Virus record (IMG/VR): IMGVR_UViG_3300043410_000848
Location: 1 to 25,978 of that record
Direction: 5' to 3' (one strand)
Length of the DNA stretch: 25,978 nt
From: a virus
Part shown: piece after piece, positions 3,662-24,470 of the stretch
Position numbering within the stretch: the stretch's first letter is position 1
Layout: every line of letters begins with the position of its first letter
Translations under genes and position numbers: made by a program
Notes under the pieces: model-generated
Seen by the model: only the letters and a program-made list of their open reading frames with translations
Told to the model about the DNA's origin: nothing
Database searches by the model: none

Positions 3662-4198
3662 TTATATTATAGCACTAAGAGGGTCGTCTGAAGTTACAAA
3701 CTCTACCTCTACCTCTTCGCTATCCGTTAAATTCTTTAACTCAATACATATATATCCATACGTAGAGTCAAAATACACGTTTTTGGCTGGGAATGATTCA
3801 TACACGTCACCTGTGCCGCCATCAATATCTAAACGTCCCACAAATTCTGAGTTATTAACTGTATCTGGTAGATAATTTTTTAAACTTAGTGCAAATTGAC
3901 TCATAATAGACTGCTCATTATCTGCCTGTTTTTCATTAGTAGATGAACTAACTAACTCAAGAATATCACTTGAGTTCTGCACAAGGCTCTTGCCCTGCTG
4001 TAAGATAATTGCAGAATCTCCAGTATTGATAAACTCATTTCCTCCAATACCGTCAAAGGTTGCACCAACCATGTAATCTACAGGAGTACTTGCTGTTTCA
4101 ATGAAAAGGTTTGATGTTGCAATTTTTACCTGGTCATGCTGTGTGCTACCACTACGGTATCCAAACGTTGTCGTTAATTTTGGGGGTGTTGCTGCCAT
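3662..4198 (-). CDS. Minor tail protein of unknown function
   Basis: The protein has 178 residues and its ATG at 4198 overlaps the hub stop (TAATG), so translation is coupled. The sequence is acidic and beta-rich. Residues about 120-178 (GRLDIDGGTGDVYESFPAKN, then VYFDSTYGYICIELKNL and EVEVEFVTSD) alternate short strands and turns. There is no signal peptide, membrane segment or catalytic motif. The conserved place directly behind the hub gene suggests a small tail-tip or fibre-attachment protein; I do not recognise the family. Confidence 0.6.
   Translation of the reverse strand: MAATPPKLTTTFGYRSGSTQHDQVKIATSNLFIETASTPVDYMVGATFDGIGGNEFINTGDSAIILQQGKSLVQNSSDILELVSSSTNEKQADNEQSIMSQFALSLKNYLPDTVNNSEFVGRLDIDGGTGDVYESFPAKNVYFDSTYGYICIELKNLTDSEEVEVEFVTSDDPLSAII
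3666..3674 (-). promoter_or_regulatory. Extended -10 promoter in front of the fibre-like gene
   Basis: TGCTATAAT on the minus strand overlaps the last codons of the 178-residue gene (A-I-I, then stop). The predicted start of transcription is near 3659, leaving a leader of about ten bases that holds AGGTG before the ATG at 3649. Such a short leader is unusual, and the hexamer lies in coding sequence, so this is less certain than the intergenic sites. Confidence 0.4.
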
Positions 4199-9117: not shown

Positions 9118-10271
9118 TATACCTCTTCCAATGTTACGCTAACATTCCAAAAATCAAAGTTGCTGCCACCACGCTTAACAACATTGTAATCAAAACTGGA
9201 GATGAACATTTCCATTACGTGACCATATTGTGATAGTTGCGAGTATTCATTTATAGAAAATTTATTGTGATTGTCATAGGCAATAAAAACCCAAAATGAA
9301 CCAGTGTGGTTTTGATACCACTCAAGAAGTTCTGTTCCACCTGCACCGCCATCAACCGTATACTGTGTTCCAGCAACTGTGGTTCCAGAAATATTATCTA
9401 CTCTTGACTGTGGTGAGGCAACGCCAGACGAGTCAAAATTAGGACTATTTGAAAATGAACGTGATGGCAACATATCCCATGAAGTTGAAAGGGTAAGTTT
9501 ATCTGCAACATGGTATGAACGCATACGACCATTAATCATGCGTTCACGTTTTTCAATACGTTCTGGTTTAAATGACATGTCTTTTCTATTGTGGTCTGAC
9601 AATATGATAAAGTCATTTCCATTGGATAGTTCGCCAACCTCAAAGCCTTGTGGAACATAGATATATTCTGGTTCAACATATGCTGTTGCTGCTGAACCAA
9701 TCTCAAATTGTGCAGAGTCGAAATATGCGTAAGTTCCAGCAACAGTAACTGTCGATGATGAATATGTATATAGTCTTACAGTATCTGCGTTTATTGGTGC
9801 AGTTGCAGTAACAGATACCCTCGTCCAGGATGATGTATTTACTCCTGTACTTGTTGTTCCAGTTGATGTAGACAAAACTGTAGTTCCTTGTCTCCATTCA
9901 ATATATGATATAAATTGTTTTGAGGAATTTCCATCTTTCACATACATTGAAAATGTATATGTTTGTCCTGGTGTTACAGTTATTACACTTCCGCTGTGAA
10001 TGATACCTAGTTTACTGCTACCACTCACATATGTAACTTTTAAAGTATTTGTTGCAGAATGTGCAATCGTTTCTGGAGTTACCTCCAAAGTCCCAACTCC
10101 ACCACCATAACTTGCATAGTTCCAGTTTGTTGTAGCATTAAAACTTGAATTTGGAATTAGGTTAATGCTAGTAATTGGATTAATTACTGTAGTAGGTGCT
10201 GAGTCAGACCAAAGCATCGCTTGTGGTCTCTTATACTTTTTTCTTCCTGCTAAATATGTGGCACTAGCCAT
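9117..10271 (-). CDS. Distal-tail-like minor tail protein with an inserted carbohydrate-binding-like domain
   Basis: The protein has 384 residues and follows the tape measure gene, the usual place of the distal tail (Dit) protein that caps the tube. The ATG at 10271 overlaps the tape measure stop by eight bases and has AGGAG ten bases upstream. Residues 1-35 (GRKKYKRPQAMLWSDSA) and about 205-384 (RIEKRERMINGRMRSYHVAD through WYQNHTGSFWVFIAYDN to WNVSVTLEEV) form the likely tail body. Between them, residues about 36-200 read as a CBM4/9-like jelly roll: it opens with NLIPNSSFNATTNWNYASY, has the middle strands TPGQTYTFSMYVKDG, SWTRVSVTATAP and VRLYTYSS, and closes with AYFDSAQFEIGSAATAYVEP. 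Such insertions make evolved Dit proteins able to bind cell-wall sugars in some Gram-positive phages. Dit identity rests on position; the inserted domain is clearer. Confidence 0.65.
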   Translation of the reverse strand: MASATYLAGRKKYKRPQAMLWSDSAPTTVINPITSINLIPNSSFNATTNWNYASYGGGVGTLEVTPETIAHSATNTLKVTYVSGSSKLGIIHSGSVITVTPGQTYTFSMYVKDGNSSKQFISYIEWRQGTTVLSTSTGTTSTGVNTSSWTRVSVTATAPINADTVRLYTYSSSTVTVAGTYAYFDSAQFEIGSAATAYVEPEYIYVPQGFEVGELSNGNDFIILSDHNRKDMSFKPERIEKRERMINGRMRSYHVADKLTLSTSWDMLPSRSFSNSPNFDSSGVASPQSRVDNISGTTVAGTQYTVDGGAGGTELLEWYQNHTGSFWVFIAYDNHNKFSINEYSQLSQYGHVMEMFISSFDYNVVKRGGSNFDFWNVSVTLEEV

Positions 10272-13200
10272 TTACTACACTGCTCCTAATTCGTTGTGAA
10301 TCAATTCTCTTGATTTCTCTCATTACTGCATCTGCAATACCGCTGGCATCTGAAGAGTTTGCATTTACTGTAACACTATAATTATACACGCAATCTCCCA
10401 TTGATGCTCCACTATTCATAGCCTTTAGATTGTCAACTCCGATGGCATCTACTGCAGATTTCTTTACAACAAATTCTCCTGGGGTGAGCATAGCAGGAAC
10501 GGTATCGGTTCCAAAGATACCACCGCCAAGTTCAAATCTTTGAGGAACTACACCACCCATAGCAAATCTATAGGTTGGTCTAAGATGTGTGGGATACGCT
10601 GTATTAGCACTGATTCCAGTACCAGTAGTCACTGTCCATGAATCTGATACTGCATCAGTAATTGCATCGGCTGCCTTGAATGCAGTACCAGTAGAGGCTG
10701 TGGTTGCTCCTGGAGATAGCCATCCAGGATTTTTCTTACCATAAAGAATTTTATAATTTGCACCATCTTTGCTAACCCCATAGACAAATGCTCCAGCAGG
10801 AACAATATAGTAAGAACCTTTGGATAATTTTTCTTCGTTCCATCCACCAGCATTACTTCCCTTTGCACTTGGAAGTTTAATTGGGTTATTTACTGCACCA
10901 TCTGCTGAAACTACTTGCTCCCAATATCCAACGTTTGCCATAGCATCATATGTCCATTTAACTTCTGATGTTGATGGTAGGTTTTTCTTTGCTGCCGCTT
11001 CTGTTGCAAATGTAGTCTGATTATTTACATTGTTTGACTTTGTTTGCAAAACCCATGTACCTGGAGTTTTTTCATCCTGAACATATCCGTCTTTGTTTGC
11101 ATTTTCATCTCTCTTGACCATAACGAACTTTTTCTTTTTAAAGTCCCAAGCACTAGTCATTCCTGCCATTGACATCCATCCACCAGCAGAGCCATTTTGA
11201 ATTTGTGCATATTGGTTTGCCACAGTATTGCCCTTTGAGTCTAAACCAACCTTTTGAGTATTTCCAAGTGCAGTTTTACCTGGTTGAACAACATCTTCTT
11301 GCCCACCCTGCTTACCTGGCTTTACTGGATTGTATGGTTTAAGTAATGACAATGCCTTTCCATCTTTAAGCATTTGAGCAATGTGCTTTGCTGATTTAAG
11401 TGCATTCTGCTCAATATCATGTTGGTGCTGGGCTTCTTTGAGTTTGAAGCCAGCAATTTTTTCAGCATTATCAGCAATAGACTTTTCTAGAGTTTCACGA
11501 TGCTCAACATGTCCATTGATGATAACCTCAATGTCTGCAAGTTCTTGCTTTCTGGCATTTTCCAAACTTGTTCTTGCATCATCCATTGCTTGCTTTTGGT
11601 CATTTTGTTTTGCAGTTAAGGCTGCTCTTGCAGCAGCAGCAATGTCACCCTTAGAAATTGCATCTGCTAATGACAAAGTATCTTGTTGCTGTTGGTTGTT
11701 TCGTTCCTGAATCTTTCCAATTTCATCAAGAGCCTTTATTCGCTTATCATACTTGTCATTAATTTCTTTTTCTTTAATGCCAATTACTTCAAGACCTGCT
11801 TGATAAAGTTCATTGTCTTTTGCTAGTCGTTCTGCTGGTGTCATTAGAACATACTTAAGACCAATTTCACTGGCTTCTCTAATTTCTTTAAGTTTCTTTA
11901 GAAGTTCTCCAGCATCTTTTTTCAACTTTCCAGTCTTTTTATCAATGATTCTGTTTTGTTCTTCTTCAGTACCATTCATAAATGCATTGATTTCTTCTGT
12001 TGCTGCTCCAGCATTTTTCATCATTACTGCGATACCGCTCATAGTGCTAATGGCTTTAGTACCATACTTCATGATAGCCTTGTATGAATCATTCCAACCG
12101 ACTGTTAGTTTTTGTTGCCAAAGATTTGCTTCTCTAAGCATCTTTACATATGGGTCAAGAACTGATGGCTCTGGTGTCTTTACTTCCTTTTGCTTCTGAG
12201 CACCAGGTCCAGTAGTATTGTCAACGCCCTGGGTCTGTACAGTTCTATCTGCCTGATATGATGCAAAGTCTGCGAATGTTGATTTTGGTCCACCAACCTC
12301 TTGTTGCCATAATCTAAATGACTTCATCATTGCTGGATTGCCATACATTTCCATAATTTGTCTTAACTCTGTTGTATAAACAATCTTATTTGCATCATTA
12401 TATTTATTAAATCTCTTTACATCTTTCTTAATTGCATCTGCAACATCTTTTCCAAGTTTTCCTGCCTCAAGTGCTAGAGTAATCTTGTTGCCACTTAGTT
12501 TTTTAAGTGAGTCTATTTTCTTTTTAGTATCTACTAACTTATCTGCATTCTTAACTGAGAAATCAATAATTGCTTTTTGTGTTACTGTATCTCCAGCAAA
12601 TGGACCTGTTGTTTTTTGAGCAATTTCCAATGCATCCAAAGCCTCTTTTGCCTGTTCTGGATTTTTTAGAGACATGTCGATTAGGAATTTCTTTCCTTCT
12701 TCAGCACCCATATTTTGTGTAATTCCTATTGCACGGTTAGCCTCTGTGCCACCAAGATTTGTTAGCAATGTGTCAAGTTGTGAAGAGCCTTCGGCATCTT
12801 GACCAAATAGATTTTGTGCCTGTGTCACTTGTGTCAAACCAATTTGCTTGCTGGCAACTGCTTGTGCAAGATTCATCTTTTGAATATCAGTTTGACCATA
12901 GAACTTATTCTTAATCAAATCTTGTGCAATTGCTGCATCACCTTCTTGACCAGTACCCTTATAATTTTCTACAACTGCATTAATGGCAGTATCTTTTGCA
13001 GTTGCAATTACTCCACTATCCATTCCTGCTAAGGTACTTTGTGCAGTAATTCTATCTTGTTTGTTTTGCTCCAAAATTGCTTGTCTGTCTATTAGATATT
13101 GGTTTTCTAGTCTTGTAGCCTCTGTTATATCTTTTGCAGCCATTGCAGCAGCAATTCTCTTTTGATAATCTACTTCAAGTGAGTCAACCATTTGTTGTTG

Positions 13201-16200
13201 ACTTTCAAGCATTGACTGATAACTAGCAGCAACAGCACCACCTGCTTCTGCAACCTTACCCCAGATATCCCATGTTCCTGCTGCCTGATTTACTTTTTCA
13301 GATGCAGCATCCATGCTTGTTGTAAACAAGTTTAATGATTCTTTTGAAATTCTCATTCTTGTTTCTAGTGGATTTCTCTTTAGGTCTGCTCCATCTGGAC
13401 CAAAAACATCGGTTAGTTTTCCAGCAACGTTAATTCCAAAGTTGGCATTCTTTAATGATTTTCCTAGATTTGCAGCAATACTTCTTGCCTGTGCTGGTGT
13501 CATTACTCCTGCACCGATGGCAGTTGATAGTTGCTGTGTAATTTGGTCTTCAGCCATTGACAGGTCACCATTTTTGATTGCTGTTCCAACATTTTTTACA
13601 AGTTCTTTTCCAGCATCGGTTTTCATGTATGATTCGCCAAATGTTGTTTTTCCTGGAACTACGTTGAAGAACTGCCCTGCACTTGCAGCACGTTGCTTAT
13701 CCATAACTTCTGTTCCAGTAGCCTTTTTAGCAAATTCAGCAAATTGACCAATTGCCTTATTTCCAGCACCAAGAGCCATTGTGGTCTTGTATGCTTCATC
13801 ACGCATTTTTTGAAGAGCCTCATTGATTTGGTTATAAATTACAAAACCTGCTGCCAATGCTCCAGCAACAAGACCTGCAGGACCAGGAATCATGGACATT
13901 GCGGTAGTAGCAGCAGATAGTGGACCCATAACAGCCTTGGCTGCATCTCCAACTACACCAGGAACCTGAGTTGCTAGACCAACAGCAGTGGTAGCCCCCA
14001 TCATTCTTCCTACTACCTTGCCAGTACCCTCAGTTGCAGTAAACATCTTTTTAAGGAATCCGCCCTTGCCAGTTCCTGGCTCTCCCTTGCCACCGTTTGC
14101 ATCCCATTCTTTAATTTGTGCATTTTCCATATTGGACATTTTTTTGGTTCTAGCACTTTGCTGTGCCTGTTCTGCCTTTGAGTGTTGCTTGCCAGCAAGT
14201 TTTTCTTCACGATATAGGTCTGACTCTCTCTTAAGTTGAGCATATTCCTCATTATTAGCCTCAAGATGTGCTCTTGTTCTTTCAAGTCTGGCAATTCTTA
14301 ACTTTTCATCAGCATCTTTTTCAGCCTTAATTTTGTCTACAACATCTTTGTTTACGACTTTGCCTTTTCTATTAGTCATAGTCTTGTTATCTGCATTAAG
14401 AACATTTGCTAGTGGTGTGGCAATGGCTTCTGCGGCATCCTTAAGTTTATCTACCGCTTTTGCAAATAGTGATGCTGGCTTGCTCTCCTCAACAACTTCT
14501 TTTGGTTTTGGAACACCAGGAATACCCTTTGAATATCCAGGAACTCCAGAAGTTCCCTTATTATATCCTGGAACATTTCCAGCAATCATGTTGGCAATTA
14601 AGCCACGGTGTTTTTCAGCCTTGTCTGCAGGAATTACAGCCTCTCCTGGGGTAAGCATAGCAGGAACCACGTCTCCAGCACCCTTTGGACCAGGGACTGA
14701 GAATACTCCACCAGCAAGTTTGAGTGGGTTGTGTGTAGGAATACCAAGTAGGCTAATAGCACCACGAGTCTTATCCATGTCATCGTAGAACTCTTCAATG
14801 TCATACCATTGCTGATAAGCCTTGGTAATTTCATACTTCATTTGCTCAGGCTTACGATAATCTTTATCTTTTCTAGCAATAATCTTTACACCAGCAAGAT
14901 TTACACCAAGTTTTGCAAGTGTTTCTCTTGTGTGTGCATCATAGGATTCTGGTCTAGCGGTCATAAGAATAATTTTGTTACCACGTGCTTGTGCTGCCTC
15001 TAATGCTCTAATACCTGCTGGAATTGGCTGAGGATTCTTTGCAACTTCCTTATACCAGTCTTTGCGTTGGTCCTTTGGAAGTTTTTCGTTTGCTGCTTGG
15101 TGACCAGGCATAAATGCAGATAGGTTTAGTAGGGTATCGTCAATATCAAAAATTGATGCTTTTGGTTTTCCAGATTTTAGTTTGCCAACATTGTCAGTTC
15201 CTTCGGCAAATTTTTGTGCATTTTTGAATAGTTCAAATCCACCTGCACCAACTTTATATCCATGCTTAGGAGCAAACTTATTTTTGTCAAATACATCAAA
15301 GTCAGCGATTGCTGACCATCTTGGCTCTGTTTCTTGATAAGAGACTGTTCCTGTATATCTTTCCCCAAATGTTCCTGGTGGCAACGAAGCACCCTTAATT
15401 GATACTGGTGGATTTGAGTAGTCACCACCTTTTAGATATTCTTCAATTGCTCTTTCTTGTTCTGTTCTTGAAGATGTTCCTCGTTTTGCTGTTGCACGAA
15501 CTTCTCCAACTTTAATTTTGCTTCCAGCAACACGGATTTCTCGTCCAGTACTAAAGTAGTCTCCTCGTTCCATACCTGCACGAATTTGTTCATCTGCTGA
15601 CATTCCCTGATTTCTCTTAAATCTCATGTCGCCAACAAGTCCTGCACGTCTCATTAGTCCTCTTGCAAGTTCTCCAGCAGGTCCAGACATAGCAGCGAAT
15701 CTTTCAAGAATTGCTCTTGTAGCCCTTGAAACATTTGAGTCTTTTACAATTGGAGATGCAGCAGAAAGTTGACCAATCTGGTCTTCAATTTGCTGAACAA
15801 TTGGAGATACTCCAGAAGAGAATCTATTTCCGTTATCATCAACAGATGCTTCTGCTGTTGAGTTCATCTTTCCTCTAATTGCATTCCATGCTGCAAGATA
15901 TAATGGTGCTGGAATTCCAGTAGATGAACCTCTCATGTACTGATTCATCCATGCTGGAATATCTGCTGTTAGATTTCCTAGAACCTGGAAATCTTGTAGT
16001 TTTTGAGGCGTTAGTCCAGTTCTCTTCTGTACCTGAGAAGCAATGTTTGGATTAAACTTATCTAACTCTTCTTCTAGGTGTGCTCTTTCTGTCTGTGACT
16101 TGAGCATTGGCATCATTGCAAGAATTTCTGGCGGAACTAATTTTGCCCAGTCTGTTGGTGGAACTTTTGAAGTTCCCAAACCATATTTTTTAGGTGTAAC

Positions 16201-19200
16201 TGCTGAATGCATTTGGTGATATTTTGTCCAGTCAACACCTAGACCAGCACCAAGTCTTCTAACCATGTCTGCGTATGCCTGTGTCTCCTCTGGAGTCAGG
16301 TCTGTCATTCCAGCAATTGTTGCATCAAGTTTAGGGATAACTCTTCTAATTTCTGCCTTCATCTCAGCATCGTACTGTTCTGGTGTCATGCTCTTTGCAA
16401 TTTCTGCTGTTGCTTCTGCAAAGAATCTCTTAGCACCACCTTTTACACCAAGAAGGTTAATGATGGCTTGTTCTTCCATAGAGTTAATCTTGCTACCAAG
16501 TGCTCTCTTGCCAGATGCCCTGCCAAATACACCAGCAGTTCCCACATCGGCAAGAACGTCTCCGCCAAGATTTCCGACACCAAGGTCTTTGTCTCCACGA
16601 AGAAGTGATGCCACCAATTGCTTAAAGTATTGGTCTTTAGTAAACGTTGTTGGAATTTCTGCAATTCTTGGGTCAACTGCTGATTCAAGAACCAAGAATC
16701 TACGAAGTCCGTCTGGGTCCGTTGGGTCCATCATTACACGAATTGTTTGTTTTGGAGCAATCAAGCCATGTGCCTCACGAGCAATTGTGGTTCCACGAAC
16801 TTCAGCCAGTGCTGATGTTAAGTCCATTTGTGGCTTAACGAACACCCTAGTGCCATCTGGTTTTTGGTAAATTCCTCCCACACTAAATGCTGGGAATGAG
16901 TGACCAGTTGTTGGTGAAATCTGTGTTCCAAAATCTGTTGGAGGGACGTTGGCATATGGACCAGCAAGCACTTCATCGCTAATCTCTTTTAACTGTAATC
17001 CAGTTCTGGCTAGACCCTCTGTTTGCTTTTGTGTAAGTGGTCCATATACTGACTGACGCATACCTGCACCAGTAGTACCACTTTCAAATCCTGGAAGATT
17101 TCCAGCAACCATACCTGCAATTACTGGTGCATACTTCTGTGCATGTTTTGCAGGAATAACTGCTTCACCTGGTGATAGTAGTGCTGGAACAATGTCTCCT
17201 GCCCCCTTTGGACCAGGAACATATGAAACACCTTGTGCATATTTCTTTGGTTTTGCATTTGGATTACCAACTGGTACACCAGGAATTCCAGAATAAGCCT
17301 GTTGAGCCTGAACAGCATTTCTATATGCTTCGGTAAGTTGGTTTACTGCTGCCGCTTCAGATGTAAATGTTTGACGTAATTTTGCGTGAGCCTGGTCAAG
17401 TGATGCAGCAATAGCAGCACCCTTTAACTGCTCAGTTGTCATATATGTTGTTTGTTCTCCAAGGATGTCGGATGGCTTAGTTGTCTTATTAATAAACGCT
17501 TTAATGTTTGTAAAGAGTTTCATAATGTTAGCAATACCGTTTGAAATCAAACCGAAGGTCATTAGTAGTAATGGACCAATACCTGCTACTGCTGTAACAA
17601 GAACTGTAATAAATTGTTTAGAGCCTTCACTAAGGTTATTGAATCCATCAAGAACTTTTCCAACAAACTCAACAATTGGGGTTACAGCCTTTAGGAATGC
17701 TTCACCAACTGGTGCAAGTTTTGCCTGAATGTCCTGAATTGACTTCTGGAACTTATACATCGGAGAGTCTGAAATCTTTTTCATTTCTCGTTCTGACAGG
17801 ACTGCGAGTTCTTCTGCAGTTTGCTTAGATAGTTCTGCAACAGTTTGTGCTTGGCTACCCTCTTTAATTACGTTCTGAAATAATGTTGAAATACGTGAGA
17901 ACTGGAACTTACCAAACATTTGCTCAATTGCACGAGCACGGTTTAGTGGGTCAAGTGTATCAAAAGCCTTTGCCATGTCAATAACGGTTGCTCTAACATT
18001 ACCTTTGTCTTTTTCTACAATACCTTTTACGTTAATTCCAAATCCAGCAAGGAAGTCTGATGCCTTTTTGGTTGGGTTAATCATAGATGCTAGACCAGAC
18101 TTGAGTGCGTTAGCACCTTCAGATGCATTAATTCCACCTTCCTTCATTGCTGTAAGGAAGAATGATAGGTCTTCTACGTTTCCACCAAGTTGCTTAATGA
18201 CAGGTGCAGCCTTTGGAATAGCAACTGTAAGGTCCTCAATTGATGTAACTGTCTGGTTTTCAACTGCATTCAAAAAGTCAATCTTTTTTGATAGGTCTTC
18301 TGTAGATGTTCCAAATGCATTTGTCAATGACATTGTTGTTTCAAGAGCCTGTTGTTGCTCTACGTTTCCAAGTACCGCTAACTTATTTGCTTCTGTGATT
18401 TGTGTTAAAAGGTCTGCACCAGTTTTACCCATTGCAGCAGCCTTGGCAGCCATATCCATTGTATCGCTAACTGCAACACCATACTTAGTAAATTCATTAG
18501 CAAGACCACGAACAGCCTTTGCCATTTTATTTGCTTCATCTGTTGTGGTGTTCATGTCACCATATACACGTTGGAATGAAATAGAAGCCTTTTCAATTTC
18601 CATATATGCCTTAGCGGCAGCAGAACCCATCATTGTAAGTGGTACAGTAAAACCAACCATCAACTGACGACCTGCCCACTGAGTGTTCTTACCAAAGTTT
18701 AGAAGTTGGGTAGAACCCTGTTTCATAAGTTGGTTAAACAACTGTTGGCGTTGAGCGGCAATCTGAGTTTTTGTACCCAAGTTATCCATGTCAAGTGCTA
18801 GTGGTTTAACAGCAATTGCCTTCATAGCACCATTGGCATCACGACCTAGTTTAATATATTGGGTCTGAAGTTCTTTTACTCTTTCACGAGCAACTTGGTT
18901 AATTGTTTCAAATTCTGACTTGAATAGTTTACCAAAAGATTTTGATGCTCCACCTGCATAGCGGAAGTACTCACCCATTGTGAGTTTGTTCTTTTCAAGT
19001 GCTGTTGTAAATCTCTCTGCACTTGTTTGAATTGTTTGAATATTTGCCTGGAATTTTCCAGTTGCGTTAACTGAATTTACCAGGTTTTGCTGCATGGCTC
19101 TTGCAGCAGCAGCGTTATCAGCACCTGCTTTTCGCATGGCTTGCTGAAAGGCTGATATTTGCTGTTGTAAAAGTTTTAGTTGCGCCAGGGCATCTGACGT

Positions 19201-19239
19201 ATCTATGTTTATATTTACATTGGTTTCAATATCAGCCAT
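10264..19239 (-). CDS. Tape measure protein with embedded kinase-like and HAD phosphatase-like domains
   Basis: The protein has 2991 residues and sets tail length. Residues 1-120 are alanine/glutamine-rich helix. About 180-560 is a TP901-type tape measure core (for example MKEGGINASEGANALKSGL). A membrane-like segment lies near 545-580 (FITVLVTAVAGIGPLLLMTF). VPGPKGAGD...PGEAVIP occurs at 674-696 and 1515-1537, and a related TDTVPAMLTPGEFVV near 2910-2925. Between the first two copies are a kinase-like segment (780-1000: K802, E813, D885, N890, D898) and a HAD domain (1358-1505: D1365, D1367, T1427, K1468, D1486, D1487). About 1590-1690 is a charged coiled coil, about 1715-1790 is Gly/Ala-rich and hydrophobic, and 1790-2700 is helical. 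About 2720-2870 is beta-rich. The start has only a weak GGTG ribosome site. The identity is very sure; the enzymatic insertions are motif-level calls. Confidence 0.92.
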   Translation of the reverse strand: MADIETNVNINIDTSDALAQLKLLQQQISAFQQAMRKAGADNAAAARAMQQNLVNSVNATGKFQANIQTIQTSAERFTTALEKNKLTMGEYFRYAGGASKSFGKLFKSEFETINQVARERVKELQTQYIKLGRDANGAMKAIAVKPLALDMDNLGTKTQIAAQRQQLFNQLMKQGSTQLLNFGKNTQWAGRQLMVGFTVPLTMMGSAAAKAYMEIEKASISFQRVYGDMNTTTDEANKMAKAVRGLANEFTKYGVAVSDTMDMAAKAAAMGKTGADLLTQITEANKLAVLGNVEQQQALETTMSLTNAFGTSTEDLSKKIDFLNAVENQTVTSIEDLTVAIPKAAPVIKQLGGNVEDLSFFLTAMKEGGINASEGANALKSGLASMINPTKKASDFLAGFGINVKGIVEKDKGNVRATVIDMAKAFDTLDPLNRARAIEQMFGKFQFSRISTLFQNVIKEGSQAQTVAELSKQTAEELAVLSEREMKKISDSPMYKFQKSIQDIQAKLAPVGEAFLKAVTPIVEFVGKVLDGFNNLSEGSKQFITVLVTAVAGIGPLLLMTFGLISNGIANIMKLFTNIKAFINKTTKPSDILGEQTTYMTTEQLKGAAIAASLDQAHAKLRQTFTSEAAAVNQLTEAYRNAVQAQQAYSGIPGVPVGNPNAKPKKYAQGVSYVPGPKGAGDIVPALLSPGEAVIPAKHAQKYAPVIAGMVAGNLPGFESGTTGAGMRQSVYGPLTQKQTEGLARTGLQLKEISDEVLAGPYANVPPTDFGTQISPTTGHSFPAFSVGGIYQKPDGTRVFVKPQMDLTSALAEVRGTTIAREAHGLIAPKQTIRVMMDPTDPDGLRRFLVLESAVDPRIAEIPTTFTKDQYFKQLVASLLRGDKDLGVGNLGGDVLADVGTAGVFGRASGKRALGSKINSMEEQAIINLLGVKGGAKRFFAEATAEIAKSMTPEQYDAEMKAEIRRVIPKLDATIAGMTDLTPEETQAYADMVRRLGAGLGVDWTKYHQMHSAVTPKKYGLGTSKVPPTDWAKLVPPEILAMMPMLKSQTERAHLEEELDKFNPNIASQVQKRTGLTPQKLQDFQVLGNLTADIPAWMNQYMRGSSTGIPAPLYLAAWNAIRGKMNSTAEASVDDNGNRFSSGVSPIVQQIEDQIGQLSAASPIVKDSNVSRATRAILERFAAMSGPAGELARGLMRRAGLVGDMRFKRNQGMSADEQIRAGMERGDYFSTGREIRVAGSKIKVGEVRATAKRGTSSRTEQERAIEEYLKGGDYSNPPVSIKGASLPPGTFGERYTGTVSYQETEPRWSAIADFDVFDKNKFAPKHGYKVGAGGFELFKNAQKFAEGTDNVGKLKSGKPKASIFDIDDTLLNLSAFMPGHQAANEKLPKDQRKDWYKEVAKNPQPIPAGIRALEAAQARGNKIILMTARPESYDAHTRETLAKLGVNLAGVKIIARKDKDYRKPEQMKYEITKAYQQWYDIEEFYDDMDKTRGAISLLGIPTHNPLKLAGGVFSVPGPKGAGDVVPAMLTPGEAVIPADKAEKHRGLIANMIAGNVPGYNKGTSGVPGYSKGIPGVPKPKEVVEESKPASLFAKAVDKLKDAAEAIATPLANVLNADNKTMTNRKGKVVNKDVVDKIKAEKDADEKLRIARLERTRAHLEANNEEYAQLKRESDLYREEKLAGKQHSKAEQAQQSARTKKMSNMENAQIKEWDANGGKGEPGTGKGGFLKKMFTATEGTGKVVGRMMGATTAVGLATQVPGVVGDAAKAVMGPLSAATTAMSMIPGPAGLVAGALAAGFVIYNQINEALQKMRDEAYKTTMALGAGNKAIGQFAEFAKKATGTEVMDKQRAASAGQFFNVVPGKTTFGESYMKTDAGKELVKNVGTAIKNGDLSMAEDQITQQLSTAIGAGVMTPAQARSIAANLGKSLKNANFGINVAGKLTDVFGPDGADLKRNPLETRMRISKESLNLFTTSMDAASEKVNQAAGTWDIWGKVAEAGGAVAASYQSMLESQQQMVDSLEVDYQKRIAAAMAAKDITEATRLENQYLIDRQAILEQNKQDRITAQSTLAGMDSGVIATAKDTAINAVVENYKGTGQEGDAAIAQDLIKNKFYGQTDIQKMNLAQAVASKQIGLTQVTQAQNLFGQDAEGSSQLDTLLTNLGGTEANRAIGITQNMGAEEGKKFLIDMSLKNPEQAKEALDALEIAQKTTGPFAGDTVTQKAIIDFSVKNADKLVDTKKKIDSLKKLSGNKITLALEAGKLGKDVADAIKKDVKRFNKYNDANKIVYTTELRQIMEMYGNPAMMKSFRLWQQEVGGPKSTFADFASYQADRTVQTQGVDNTTGPGAQKQKEVKTPEPSVLDPYVKMLREANLWQQKLTVGWNDSYKAIMKYGTKAISTMSGIAVMMKNAGAATEEINAFMNGTEEEQNRIIDKKTGKLKKDAGELLKKLKEIREASEIGLKYVLMTPAERLAKDNELYQAGLEVIGIKEKEINDKYDKRIKALDEIGKIQERNNQQQQDTLSLADAISKGDIAAAARAALTAKQNDQKQAMDDARTSLENARKQELADIEVIINGHVEHRETLEKSIADNAEKIAGFKLKEAQHQHDIEQNALKSAKHIAQMLKDGKALSLLKPYNPVKPGKQGGQEDVVQPGKTALGNTQKVGLDSKGNTVANQYAQIQNGSAGGWMSMAGMTSAWDFKKKKFVMVKRDENANKDGYVQDEKTPGTWVLQTKSNNVNNQTTFATEAAAKKNLPSTSEVKWTYDAMANVGYWEQVVSADGAVNNPIKLPSAKGSNAGGWNEEKLSKGSYYIVPAGAFVYGVSKDGANYKILYGKKNPGWLSPGATTASTGTAFKAADAITDAVSDSWTVTTGTGISANTAYPTHLRPTYRFAMGGVVPQRFELGGGIFGTDTVPAMLTPGEFVVKKSAVDAIGVDNLKAMNSGASMGDCVYNYSVTVNANSSDASGIADAVMREIKRIDSQRIRSSVVNG
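10462..10530 (-). repeat. Third, diverged copy of the tape measure PGE motif
   Basis: This encodes residues 2904-2926 and includes GTDTVPAMLTPGEFVVKK. It keeps the D-x-V-P-A-x-L-x-P-G-E core of the other two copies but lacks VPGPKGAGD and has E-F-V-V for E-A-V-I. It is close to the form I associate with the C-terminus of many tape measure proteins, so it may be the ancestral copy. Confidence 0.75.
14629..14697 (-). repeat. Second copy of the VPGPKGAGD...PGEAVIP protein repeat
   Basis: Residues 1515-1537 of the tape measure protein repeat residues 674-696 with few changes. The similarity continues downstream as A-x-K-x-x-x-x-I-A-x-M-x-A-G-N-x-P-G followed by a G-T-(S/T)-G stretch. This copy lies directly after the HAD domain and is followed by a proline/glycine linker with repeated G-V-P-G-Y-(N/S)-K-G units. 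Confidence 0.85.
14725..15168 (-). other. HAD-superfamily phosphatase domain inside the tape measure gene
   Basis: Residues 1358-1505 show the four HAD motifs in order. Motif I is IFDIDDTLLN, with D1365 as the expected nucleophile and D1367 as acid/base. Motif II is IILMTARPE (T1427). Motif III is the lysine in PEQMKYEI (K1468). Motif IV is EFYDDMDKT (D1486, D1487, metal binding). Spacing and the K-x-E-I plus F/Y-D-D arrangement resemble the phosphatase half of T4 polynucleotide kinase. The substrate is unknown; the fold call is firm. Confidence 0.8.
16240..16902 (-). other. Protein-kinase-like (HipA/PI3K-type) segment inside the tape measure gene
   Basis: Residues about 780-1000 carry landmarks in kinase order. 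GGIYQKPDGTR with VFVKP suggests strands 1-3 with K802. ALAEVRGTTIAREAHGL suggests helix C with E813 (E822 is an alternative). RRFLVLESAV suggests the hinge. D885-x4-N890 in GDKDLGVGN suggests the catalytic loop, and LADVGTAG with D898 stands in the DFG place. Only eight residues separate N890 from D898, shorter than in ordinary kinases, so activity and even the fold need structural support. Confidence 0.5.
17152..17220 (-). repeat. First copy of the VPGPKGAGD...PGEAVIP protein repeat
   Basis: Residues 674-696 of the tape measure protein lie just after the core and membrane-like segment and mark the left edge, in protein order, of the cargo block. Nearly the same sequence recurs at residues 1515-1537. 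Residues up to about 722 (IAGMVAGNLPGFESGTTG) also align with the second copy. Confidence 0.85.
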
Positions 19240-19257: not shown

Positions 19258-19584
19258 TTAGCCGTTAATTAGACCACCCATTAGTGATGCCTCACTAAGT
19301 TTGATACCAGATGCCTCTTCGACAATCTTGTATACGGTTGGAAGGTCTAGAAGTTCCTCTAGTGCCTTCAGGTCTGTGGCTAGTTCTGGAGCATACTGCT
19401 TCAGGGCAATCTGGACACATTCCATGAGAAGAGTCATTGACTTCTCGTTGTTGTCTGCTACTTCTGCAATGCCCTCAAATTTTGTCATGAATGGGCGAAG
19501 AAGTGAGATTTTAAGTGGACGAACAGCAATCTTCTGACCGTCTAGTAGTTCTACAGTTTTTGTCTCATTGATAGTTGTAGACAT
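19258..19584 (-). CDS. Short tail assembly chaperone (G-like)
   Basis: The protein has 108 residues and is clearly a paralogue of the first 100 residues of the longer chaperone encoded just upstream. Shared positions include V-E-L-x-D-G, V-x-P-L-K-I-x-x-L-R-x-F-M, E-C-x-x-I-A-x-K-Q-Y-x-P, D-L-P-T-x-Y-K-I and G-I-K. It ends shortly after this domain and has no T-like extension. Chaperones of this kind coat the tape measure protein before the tube polymerises; this gene ends 18 bases before the tape measure start, the classical position. The ATG at 19584 has a strong AAGGAGG site and lies just behind an extended -10 promoter. I see no in-frame route to a longer product: the A6 run at its end lies beyond the start of the stop codon. 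It may supply the abundant short form (inference). Confidence 0.75.
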   Translation of the reverse strand: MSTTINETKTVELLDGQKIAVRPLKISLLRPFMTKFEGIAEVADNNEKSMTLLMECVQIALKQYAPELATDLKALEELLDLPTVYKIVEEASGIKLSEASLMGGLING

Positions 19585-19609
19585 GAATCCTCCTTATGGT
19601 TTCTAGACA

Positions 19610-19618
19610 ATTATAACA
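19610..19618 (-). promoter_or_regulatory. Extended -10 promoter for the short chaperone (and possibly tape measure)
   Basis: The minus strand reads TGTTATAAT in the 47-base gap between the two chaperone genes, a perfect extended -10. The predicted transcript starts near 19603 and gives a leader of about 19 bases with AAGGAGG before the ATG at 19584. No convincing -35 lies 16-18 bases upstream (the 17-base position holds CTCATA), as expected for an extended -10 type. Confidence 0.6.
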
Positions 19619-19631
19619 TAAAGTATCTTAT

Positions 19632-20339
19632 CTATGAGAGGTTTTCGTAGTCTAGCCCCATTCCAATACCGAAGCCGAACTGCTGTGCTTTCTGACCTTG
19701 CAATGATAGAATATCATTTGGGTCACCATTACCAATTCCACTTACCTTCGCAGCAACTCTAGCCTTCATGGCTTCCCATGGGTCTTCTTCTTGTTTTCCT
19801 GCTTGTTCATCTAGGTCAACACCCTGCATTGCAGCCAAGAACTTTTTCTCATTATAGTCAAGTTCTCTTCTTGATTCTAAAATAGCCATTAGTTCTGCCA
19901 TACATAAACTGCTCTCTAGTTCATCATAGTTCTTCCAAATTCCCAAAAGAAATACCTCTGATTCTAGTTTTACTAGGTCAAGTGCCTCCCAACTACCGCT
20001 ACTTTTTGATGTTGCTTTGTTAGAAACTGGTTCATTATTAGTTACAGCATTTCTATTAATCTTAATTCCAGCACAAACATCCAAAATTTTATAAATAGTT
20101 GGTAGGTCAACAGAATCTTCAAGGTCTGCTACTGTTCTGATTGCTGGATAGTATTGCTTCATTGCTATTCTTGCACATTCAGAAAGTACCGCCACAGATT
20201 CTTCATCAGTTTTTGCAGACTGAATTGTATTAAATACTTCCATAAACTGTCTTAGGTACTTAATCTTTAGTGGGCTAACTTCAATAATAGTTCCGTCTAC
20301 TAGTTCGACTTCTTCTATATCATATATTTTTGTAGGCAT
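19632..20339 (-). CDS. Long tail assembly chaperone (GT-like)
   Basis: The protein has 235 residues. Residues 1-100 are the chaperone domain shared with the 108-residue paralogue. A polar linker follows at about 101-116 (NEPVSNKATSKSSG). Residues about 117-235 are an extension containing LESEVFLLGIWKNYDELESS, LDYNEKKFLAAMQGVDLDEQ, DPWEAMKARVAAK and GDPNDILSLQGQKAQQFGFG. In lambda-type phages a similar long form (GT) is usually made by a programmed frameshift from the short gene; here it is one uninterrupted frame. No Shine-Dalgarno precedes the ATG at 20339. A TGGTATACT element ends six bases before the ATG, predicting a leaderless mRNA. A run of five A residues at 20007-20003, in the linker, could allow a -1 slip to an immediate stop; this is speculative. 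Confidence 0.8.
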   Translation of the reverse strand: MPTKIYDIEEVELVDGTIIEVSPLKIKYLRQFMEVFNTIQSAKTDEESVAVLSECARIAMKQYYPAIRTVADLEDSVDLPTIYKILDVCAGIKINRNAVTNNEPVSNKATSKSSGSWEALDLVKLESEVFLLGIWKNYDELESSLCMAELMAILESRRELDYNEKKFLAAMQGVDLDEQAGKQEEDPWEAMKARVAAKVSGIGNGDPNDILSLQGQKAQQFGFGIGMGLDYENLS

Positions 20340-20345
20340 CTAATA

Positions 20346-20354
20346 AGTATACCA
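20346..20354 (-). promoter_or_regulatory. Extended -10 promoter giving a predicted leaderless start for the long chaperone
   Basis: The minus strand reads TGGTATACT right after the tail-tube terminator. Six bases (TATTAG) separate the hexamer from the ATG at 20339, so transcription should begin at the A of the start codon. The absence of a ribosome-binding site before this ATG supports the reading. Confidence 0.55.
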
Positions 20355-20361
20355 AAAAAGA

Positions 20362-20391
20362 AACTGCCCCAGGAATAAACCCAGGGCAGTT
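20362..20391 (-). terminator. Intrinsic terminator after the major tail protein gene
   Basis: The RNA forms a 12-pair stem: eight Watson-Crick pairs from AACUGCCC with GGGCAGUU, then U-G and G-U wobbles and two G-C pairs, around a UUUAUU loop. It is followed at once by TTCTTTTTT. It lies 16 bases after the stop of the tail-tube gene and just in front of the long-chaperone promoter. Confidence 0.9.
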
Positions 20392-20407
20392 CCACACTAT
20401 TTAATTA

Positions 20408-21148
20408 TTAGAATGAACGGTCAACAATCTTACCGTAAGCACCATTGTTGTCTGGAAGTAGACGGAATGATACTTCGAAAGCAGTTGCAGCGTCACGCTT
20501 TGCAGATACTGTTACTGAATCAATTGAAACAGCACGGTATGCAATGTAAACACGCTCTGCCTGGTTGCTTAGTGTGTCTGGAGTAGCACCACTAAGGTTG
20601 CCAGTTCCTGGACCAACAGCAATAATACCACGTTCGATTGGGTAGTCACCAAGGTCACCTGAAGTGATGTTTAGGAATGTGTTGCTCTCTGTACCACCAG
20701 TAGTTAGTACAGCAGATGCAGCAACGGTTCCTGTCTGAGCAGCACCAAGTGTTAGAAGTCGTGTAACCTCTGCTGATGTTCCATAGTTAAGTACACCAAA
20801 GTCTGAATTCTTGCCAGCGATTGCAAGGAGAAGGTTCTCCAGAGTCGCTTCAGCAAGGGTAGTCTTAAGTGTAACCTTCATGCCCTGCTTGAAGATTTTA
20901 GCAGTGTCTAGTAGTTGGTCTACCATAACTTCACCAAAGTCTGGAGCAAATGAGATTTCTAGACCGTTGTTGGTGTAACCAACGTTACGGAAGTTAGCAG
21001 TCTCACGTAGTGATAGAGTTTCCTTGTATGATTCTCCATCGACGAAGCCAGGCACAGATGTTGATGTCAAAGTTGCTGTGTCCTTAGTAACGAACAGAGC
21101 AGCAGCACCAACGATAATGTTAGCATTTGAGCCTCTTGTATAAGCCAT
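20408..21148 (-). CDS. Major tail (tube) protein
   Basis: The protein has 246 residues, a normal size for a siphovirus tube protein. The N-terminal half shows the expected alternation: an early strand (NIIVGAAALFVTKD), a loop (GFVDGESYKETLSLRETANF), then NNGLEISFAPDFGEVMVDQL with the D-x-L-L-D-T-A-K-I-F helix. The middle strands are VTLKTTLAEATLENLLLAIA, and the C-terminus is VSFRLLPDNNGAYGKIVD. It sits between the tail-terminator-like gene and the chaperones, as in most siphoviruses, and a promoter and an intrinsic terminator make it a separate transcription unit, fitting the high copy number of tube subunits. The start at 21148 has only a weak GGTG site, within a leader of about 50 bases. 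Base composition is closer to the capsid gene than to the tail-tip genes. Confidence 0.85.
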   Translation of the reverse strand: MAYTRGSNANIIVGAAALFVTKDTATLTSTSVPGFVDGESYKETLSLRETANFRNVGYTNNGLEISFAPDFGEVMVDQLLDTAKIFKQGMKVTLKTTLAEATLENLLLAIAGKNSDFGVLNYGTSAEVTRLLTLGAAQTGTVAASAVLTTGGTESNTFLNITSGDLGDYPIERGIIAVGPGTGNLSGATPDTLSNQAERVYIAYRAVSIDSVTVSAKRDAATAFEVSFRLLPDNNGAYGKIVDRSF

Positions 21149-24461: not shown

Positions 24462-24470
24462 ATTATACCA
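24462..24470 (-). promoter_or_regulatory. Extended -10 promoter for the neck gene cluster
   Basis: The minus strand reads TGGTATAAT just after the capsid-gene terminator. The predicted transcript starts near 24455 and has a leader of about 20 bases with AAGGAGG before the ATG at 24435. There is no -35 match at normal spacing. It probably drives the 131-residue gene and the coupled neck genes behind it. Confidence 0.65.

Follow-up and report, generated by a model that had tools for sequence, protein, structure and literature searches.

We have analyzed a window of 25,978 nucleotides of viral DNA (IMG/VR virus record IMGVR_UViG_3300043410_000848, positions 1 to 25,978) that carries two adjacent genes for tail assembly chaperones, one long and one short. 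All features of the window described here lie on its minus strand, and in the direction of transcription the gene order is major tail protein (MTP), long chaperone, short chaperone and tape measure protein (TMP). The MTP gene (20408..21148) matches phrog_2175 ('Ig domain', E 8e-28) and phrog_885 (major tail protein, E 8e-4) and is syntenic with annotated MTPs. It is followed by an intrinsic terminator with a 14-bp stem and a T-run (20360..20393), immediately ahead of the long gene. This gene (19632..20339) encodes a fused G-T protein of 235 aa; 188 full relatives likewise have the N and T parts in one frame. The N (G) domain of this protein, residues 1-97 (20049..20339), was delimited by its match to phrog_10504 and by an AlphaFold2 model, and the T domain, about residues 116-235 (19635..19994), by alignment with the homologous -1 frame T ORFs of Stanwilliamsviridae and Trinavirus. 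The short gene (19258..19584) encodes 108 aa comprising the N domain only. The TMP gene (10264..19239) begins 18 nt past the short gene and encodes 2991 aa, with a match to the tape measure family phrog_10030 (E 1.3e-99). Judged by PHROG matches and synteny, the place between MTP and TMP is that of tail assembly chaperones. The TMP also contains, at about residues 1342-1490, an embedded domain resembling HAD phosphatases and polynucleotide kinase-phosphatases (PF03767, E 7.6e-14; phrog_415, E 2e-15).

Both chaperones match phrog_10504 (residues 1-97 of the long protein and 1-102 of the short), and the long protein alone matches phrog_10474, the T part, at residues 134-206. A preliminary description of this DNA had claimed that the 235-residue gene holds both domains in one frame and that the 108-residue gene repeats only the N-terminal one, and both claims hold: the two N-domains share 45% identity and 66% positives over 101 aa (E 3e-25). 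That the two genes might instead come from different families is excluded by this paralogy, by the shared PHROG and by the phylogeny given below. The hallmark of tail assembly chaperones, two products with a common N-domain of which the longer has an extra C-terminal domain, is present. The same two PHROGs correspond to a separate G ORF and T ORF in Streptomyces and Rhodococcus phages, where several of the G/T records are annotated as 'tail assembly chaperone', and the long protein is 48% identical to the G and T of Coruscant (E 2e-39). Searches of Pfam and NCBIfam gave no named family above cut-off for either chaperone. The window proteins have no match to PF12322 or phrog_150 at E values up to 1; single related members match these families weakly (E 0.0012 and 0.0037). 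Sequence searches found no relative of solved structure, and there were no DNA-level matches among isolated phages.

AlphaFold2 models of the two proteins had pLDDT values of 69.9 (long) and 71.6 (short, modelled with the alignment rows from annotated records left out). The N-domain is predicted to form a beta hairpin and four helices (pLDDT about 75-91), while in the long protein a linker at residues 95-115 is predicted to be disordered (pLDDT <50) and the T domain to be helical. For the short model the top hit in BFVD is a protein annotated as a tail assembly chaperone (E 2e-6, TM 0.75), and the first-ranked PDB entry is HK97 gp13 (2OB9), a weak match (E 1.1, TM 0.46; VIA Z 4.4). This was the only link found to the chaperones of lambda, HK97 and TP901-1, for which family searches gave no sequence match. 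A fold search with the long model, at its pLDDT, returned nothing meaningful.

A fused long gene followed by a short gene was found in 198 distinct IMG/VR protein sets, usually with 26-80 nt between the two genes. Since the same pair recurs in so many distinct sets, an assembly artefact is ruled out as the source of the pair in the window. All ten contigs of 90-125 kb of the two-gene type contain exactly two N-domains and one T. Among 273 distinct sets, none had the intermediate form of a frameshifting locus plus an extra gene. One candidate intermediate, L159, was rejected: a one-base break lies inside the conserved N-domain of its long gene, in an otherwise normal two-gene locus (1-700 of that contig) close to the contig end, and this break is probably an assembly error. 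In four sets (L057-L060) the long and short genes are separated by a 781-nt gap that contains a SAM-methyltransferase gene (Methyltransf_25, E 4.7e-17), and each chaperone gene retains its own promoter and signals.

In most long-tailed phages a short and a long chaperone are produced from one locus by a programmed frameshift, an arrangement explained by the need for a fixed ratio between them. Relatives with such a single frameshifting locus, suggested earlier as worth searching for, do exist. We found 62 distinct sets, comprising Stanwilliamsviridae and Trinavirus isolates and other environmental phages, the IMG/VR scans having added environmental cases; in all 62 there is one N-domain ORF, and the T ORF behind it is in the -1 frame. 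An XXXYYYZ heptamer is present in 53 of them (GGGAAAC in 27, CCCAAAT in 15, CCCAAAC in 8, GGGAAAA in 2 and GGGAAAT in 1). The other nine are Boydwoodruffvirinae isolates and their like, and those of them that were read have CCCGGAA at the homologous place. The Stanwilliamsviridae (Streptomyces phages Coruscant, BillNye, LukeCage, Jay2Jay and others) have homologous N and T parts at the same position between MTP and TMP, and a terminator-like hairpin ahead of the locus in two of three tested, as in the window family. They differ from the window in having a single locus with T in the -1 frame and no second N-domain gene; the T ORF is open for 46-64 nt into G in the eight that were read. In the Rhodococcus phages NiceHouse and Trina, too, T lies in the -1 frame behind a single G ORF, and the chaperone of NiceHouse is annotated as a joined gene with GGGAAAA within the overlap. 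The N and T parts closest to those of the window family belong to environmental phages with GGGAAAC (L199, L218, L236, L344 and others), the nearest frameshifting sister. The promoter and Shine-Dalgarno sequence of this group resemble those of the short gene of the window family, but it has only one G, which carries GGGAAAC, and a -1 frame T, and seven of seven large contigs carry one N-domain. Contigs from metagenome-assembled genomes (MAGs) yielded one relative, also of the single-locus type: a 110-kb contig (L254) assigned to a cyanobacterium-labelled MAG, into which a phage contig was probably binned.

The signals ahead of the two chaperone genes are of different kinds, a point that, like the terminator, does not figure in the preliminary description. 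The figures that follow come from related sequences, with single-base shuffles as controls, and count -10 hexamers and Shine-Dalgarno sequences as consensus matches. The long gene of the window has an extended -10 (TGGTATACT, 20346..20354) whose hexamer ends 6 nt before the ATG, and no Shine-Dalgarno, a leaderless-type start. A -10 hexamer (counted at 5/6 or better) precedes the long gene in 96 of 102 relatives, the longest Shine-Dalgarno match is 4 nt or less in all 102, and a terminator-like hairpin lies ahead of the gene in 101 of 107 distinct relatives, against 0.8 in shuffles. No such hairpin was seen between long and short genes (0/98) or between short gene and TMP (0/90). The short gene of the window is preceded by an extended -10 (TGTTATAAT, 19610..19618) and by the Shine-Dalgarno AAGGAGG (19589..19595). 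All 100 relatives have a -10 hexamer here (TATAAT in 98, TACAAT in two) at positions -30 to -43, at least 98 of them TGn-extended (TGnTATAAT), and 98 of the 100 have a Shine-Dalgarno match of at least 5 nt. A sigma-70 scan that includes the -35 element misses these promoters. There is no good -35 at either site, so the promoter calls depend on the extended -10 and on how well it is conserved. The short-type start is also that of single-locus G genes (TATAAT in 40 of 58, a Shine-Dalgarno match of at least 5 nt in 55 of 58), and the leaderless-type start of the long gene is for that reason probably the derived one. The TMP gene shows no promoter of its own, with a -10 hexamer in only 7% of relatives, below shuffles, and it is probably read from the promoter of the short gene.

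A phylogeny of the two N-domains, as the preliminary description had proposed, separates the paralogs. The short N-domains form one clade (105/105, support 100), and in a more careful tree the longs form one clade (98/95) and the shorts another (90/37). Long and short N-domains are 43.2% identical when taken from the same genome and 43.6% when taken from different genomes. Same-genome pairs are thus no closer than cross-genome pairs, which argues that there has been no gene conversion between the paralogs and, with the shorts forming one clade, that the duplication is old. The short N-domain evolves more slowly than the long one (mean identity 70% versus 56%; 476 of 500 pairs).

We consider it probable that a tandem duplication has replaced the -1 frameshift in this lineage and that separate signals now most likely set the ratio of short to long chaperone. 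The proposal that duplication had taken the place of frameshifting is supported by the 198 two-gene sets beside the 62 -1 frame loci, together with the chance-level heptamers of the long genes discussed below. The two genes would encode the long (GT-like) and the short (G-like) chaperones of a tailed phage; the isolates nearest to it have Streptomyces and Rhodococcus as hosts. An ancestor would have made both forms from one locus by -1 ribosomal frameshifting, and a tandem duplication then affected the G/T locus, or the G part alone, in one lineage. Comparison with the relatives shows that the upstream copy became an in-frame G-T fusion while the downstream copy retained G only. The long protein would be expressed from a leaderless-type promoter isolated by the terminator and lacking a Shine-Dalgarno, and the short protein from a near-consensus extended -10 with a strong Shine-Dalgarno, on a transcript predicted to run on into the TMP gene. 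With the recoding signal gone, the required excess of short over long protein is most likely set by these separate signals. In lambda the short form coats the TMP and the T domain recruits major tail subunits. By analogy, the short form in the window would coat the TMP and the T domain of the rarer long form would recruit the major tail subunits. The short:long ratio in lambda is 30:1 (PMC5009743). Engineering TP901-1 to make a G-T fusion but no free G yielded particles that were complete in morphology yet not infectious (PMC4493119), a result that fits the retention of a separate short (G) gene.

Several other explanations bear on the same observations. The long gene could still make its own short form, by frameshifting or by a dnaX-like internal event, the 108-aa gene being a paralog with another role. 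XXXYYYZ heptamers do occur in 40 of 109 long genes, as in any A+T-rich gene, and in the window the long gene has one, TTTGGGA, at codon 131. However, codon-shuffled controls contain 40.0, no heptamer is common to most of the 109 long genes, and it is the short gene that carries the better conserved N copy and the control region of the ancestral G; we regard this explanation as extremely improbable. A hidden frameshift in the long gene was rejected on these chance-level counts, and a frameshift out of the short gene was rejected as there is no T-like frame behind it. In the window the long form is not reached by a -1 frameshift from the start of the short form, the long gene being in one frame and the short one a separate gene. 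A different view is that the chaperones have become subfunctionalised, their N-domains binding different partners or different stretches of the TMP, so that the ratio was not the point of the duplication. The divergence of the N-domains (about 43% identity) with no gene conversion and unequal rates would agree with this, as would the unusual length of the TMP. Yet relatives have their ratio-setting frameshift at exactly the place of these genes, and the overall set of domains (G plus GT) is conserved, which makes subfunctionalisation as the main explanation rather unlikely.

Two further alternatives concern parts of the preferred explanation, replacement of the frameshift by duplication. The -10 ahead of the long gene might not be its start, translation coming from terminator read-through or from an upstream start; terminators do leak, and a consensus match is no proof of function. 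This carries some weight, but it is the less likely course, given that the spacing between the -10 and the ATG is constant (first T at -12 in 60 of 96 relatives and at -11 to -15 in 86) while terminators and spacers vary, and that the ATG of the long gene is homologous to the G start of relatives. The geometry also matches that reported for leaderless genes, a common class in Actinobacteria with TANNNT some 12 nt upstream (PMC3160421). Alternatively, the two-gene state could be the older one, with frameshifting regained in the GGGAAAC phages: their clade is nested among two-gene phages in the MTP tree, and their G joins the short clade in the N-domain tree (95/88). Against this, the -1 frame arrangement is the one found in the outgroups, Stanwilliamsviridae and Trinavirus, and the one-clade alternatives are not rejected and score above the free-search trees, both for long and short N-domains as one clade apart from all frameshifting G (p-AU 0.857) and for two-gene MTPs as one clade (p-AU 0.677). 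A return to frameshifting would moreover require that a slip site, a T ORF and a single G be regained, which is less simple, and we hold such a reversal to be very unlikely. Because the outgroups frameshift, frameshifting is most simply, and on these comparisons probably, the ancestral state. The duplication that we favour as its replacement was probably a single event, which on the N-domain and MTP trees may have come before or after the GGGAAAC sister branched off.

Lambda G/GT, HK97 gp13 and TP901-1 gpG/gpGT, like the window, combine a short form with a long one that has an extra C-terminal domain, beside the TMP gene, but they use one start codon and a programmed -1 frameshift. It had been suggested that the long-first order in the window is the reverse of that in lambda; since lambda G and GT share a start codon, this contrast has no meaning. 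Separate short and long genes are not unprecedented, because some T4-like phages have been described as having one short gene and one long fused gene and no frameshifting (PMC10885494, citing Vladimirov et al. 2022). T4 gp26 and gp51 both belong to PF12322 and are paralogs (E 2e-6); their genes are adjacent and divergently transcribed. We take T4 genes 26 and 51 to be the pair meant by Vladimirov et al. (2022). As in the window, the short and long proteins of the T4-like phages come from separate paralogous genes (PMC10885494); unlike the window, T4 is a myovirus, its genes are divergent rather than tandem, and they fall into a different sequence family (phrog_150, PF12322). In Microbacterium cluster EA phages, where no frameshift is evident, two chaperone ORFs are described as separately expressed, in a passage that does not mention an N-domain repeated in both (PMC7302621).

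The window case is another variant of separate short and long genes, probably independent of the T4-like phages. What is new here is the other virus lineage and protein family, the tandem order, the defined start signals and the frameshifting sister. In the literature searched, coverage of which is incomplete, no earlier description of this two-gene lineage was found. On balance we lean slightly towards the stronger statement that this large lineage of environmental phages, kin of actinophages, has exchanged a ratio set by translational recoding for one set by transcription, with a scarce long form made from a leaderless mRNA behind the terminator and an abundant short form driven by a strong promoter and Shine-Dalgarno of its own. 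This solution would have arisen separately from that of the T4-like phages, and a frameshifting sister is at hand for direct comparison. A lineage without the frameshift and a sister with it make a natural experiment that asks which of the two matters, the ratio or the frameshift itself, and they also bear on how control of a ratio may pass from translational recoding to ordinary start signals. For annotation they carry a warning: two chaperone genes in a genome do not amount to a missed frameshift.

Similar start signals occur elsewhere in the window. In a 142-aa gene (643-1086, start at 1071) TATAAT lies exactly 6 nt upstream of the ATG, with no clear Shine-Dalgarno. The window thus holds a second start of the leaderless type, so this type of signal is not specific to the long chaperone. 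Extended -10 motifs are also found ahead of other structural genes, TGCTATAAT at 3666-3674 and TGGTATAAT at 24462-24470. The pattern KGNTATAMT has 9 matches in the window against 3.9 expected, and this recurrence of the motif suggests a common late promoter type.
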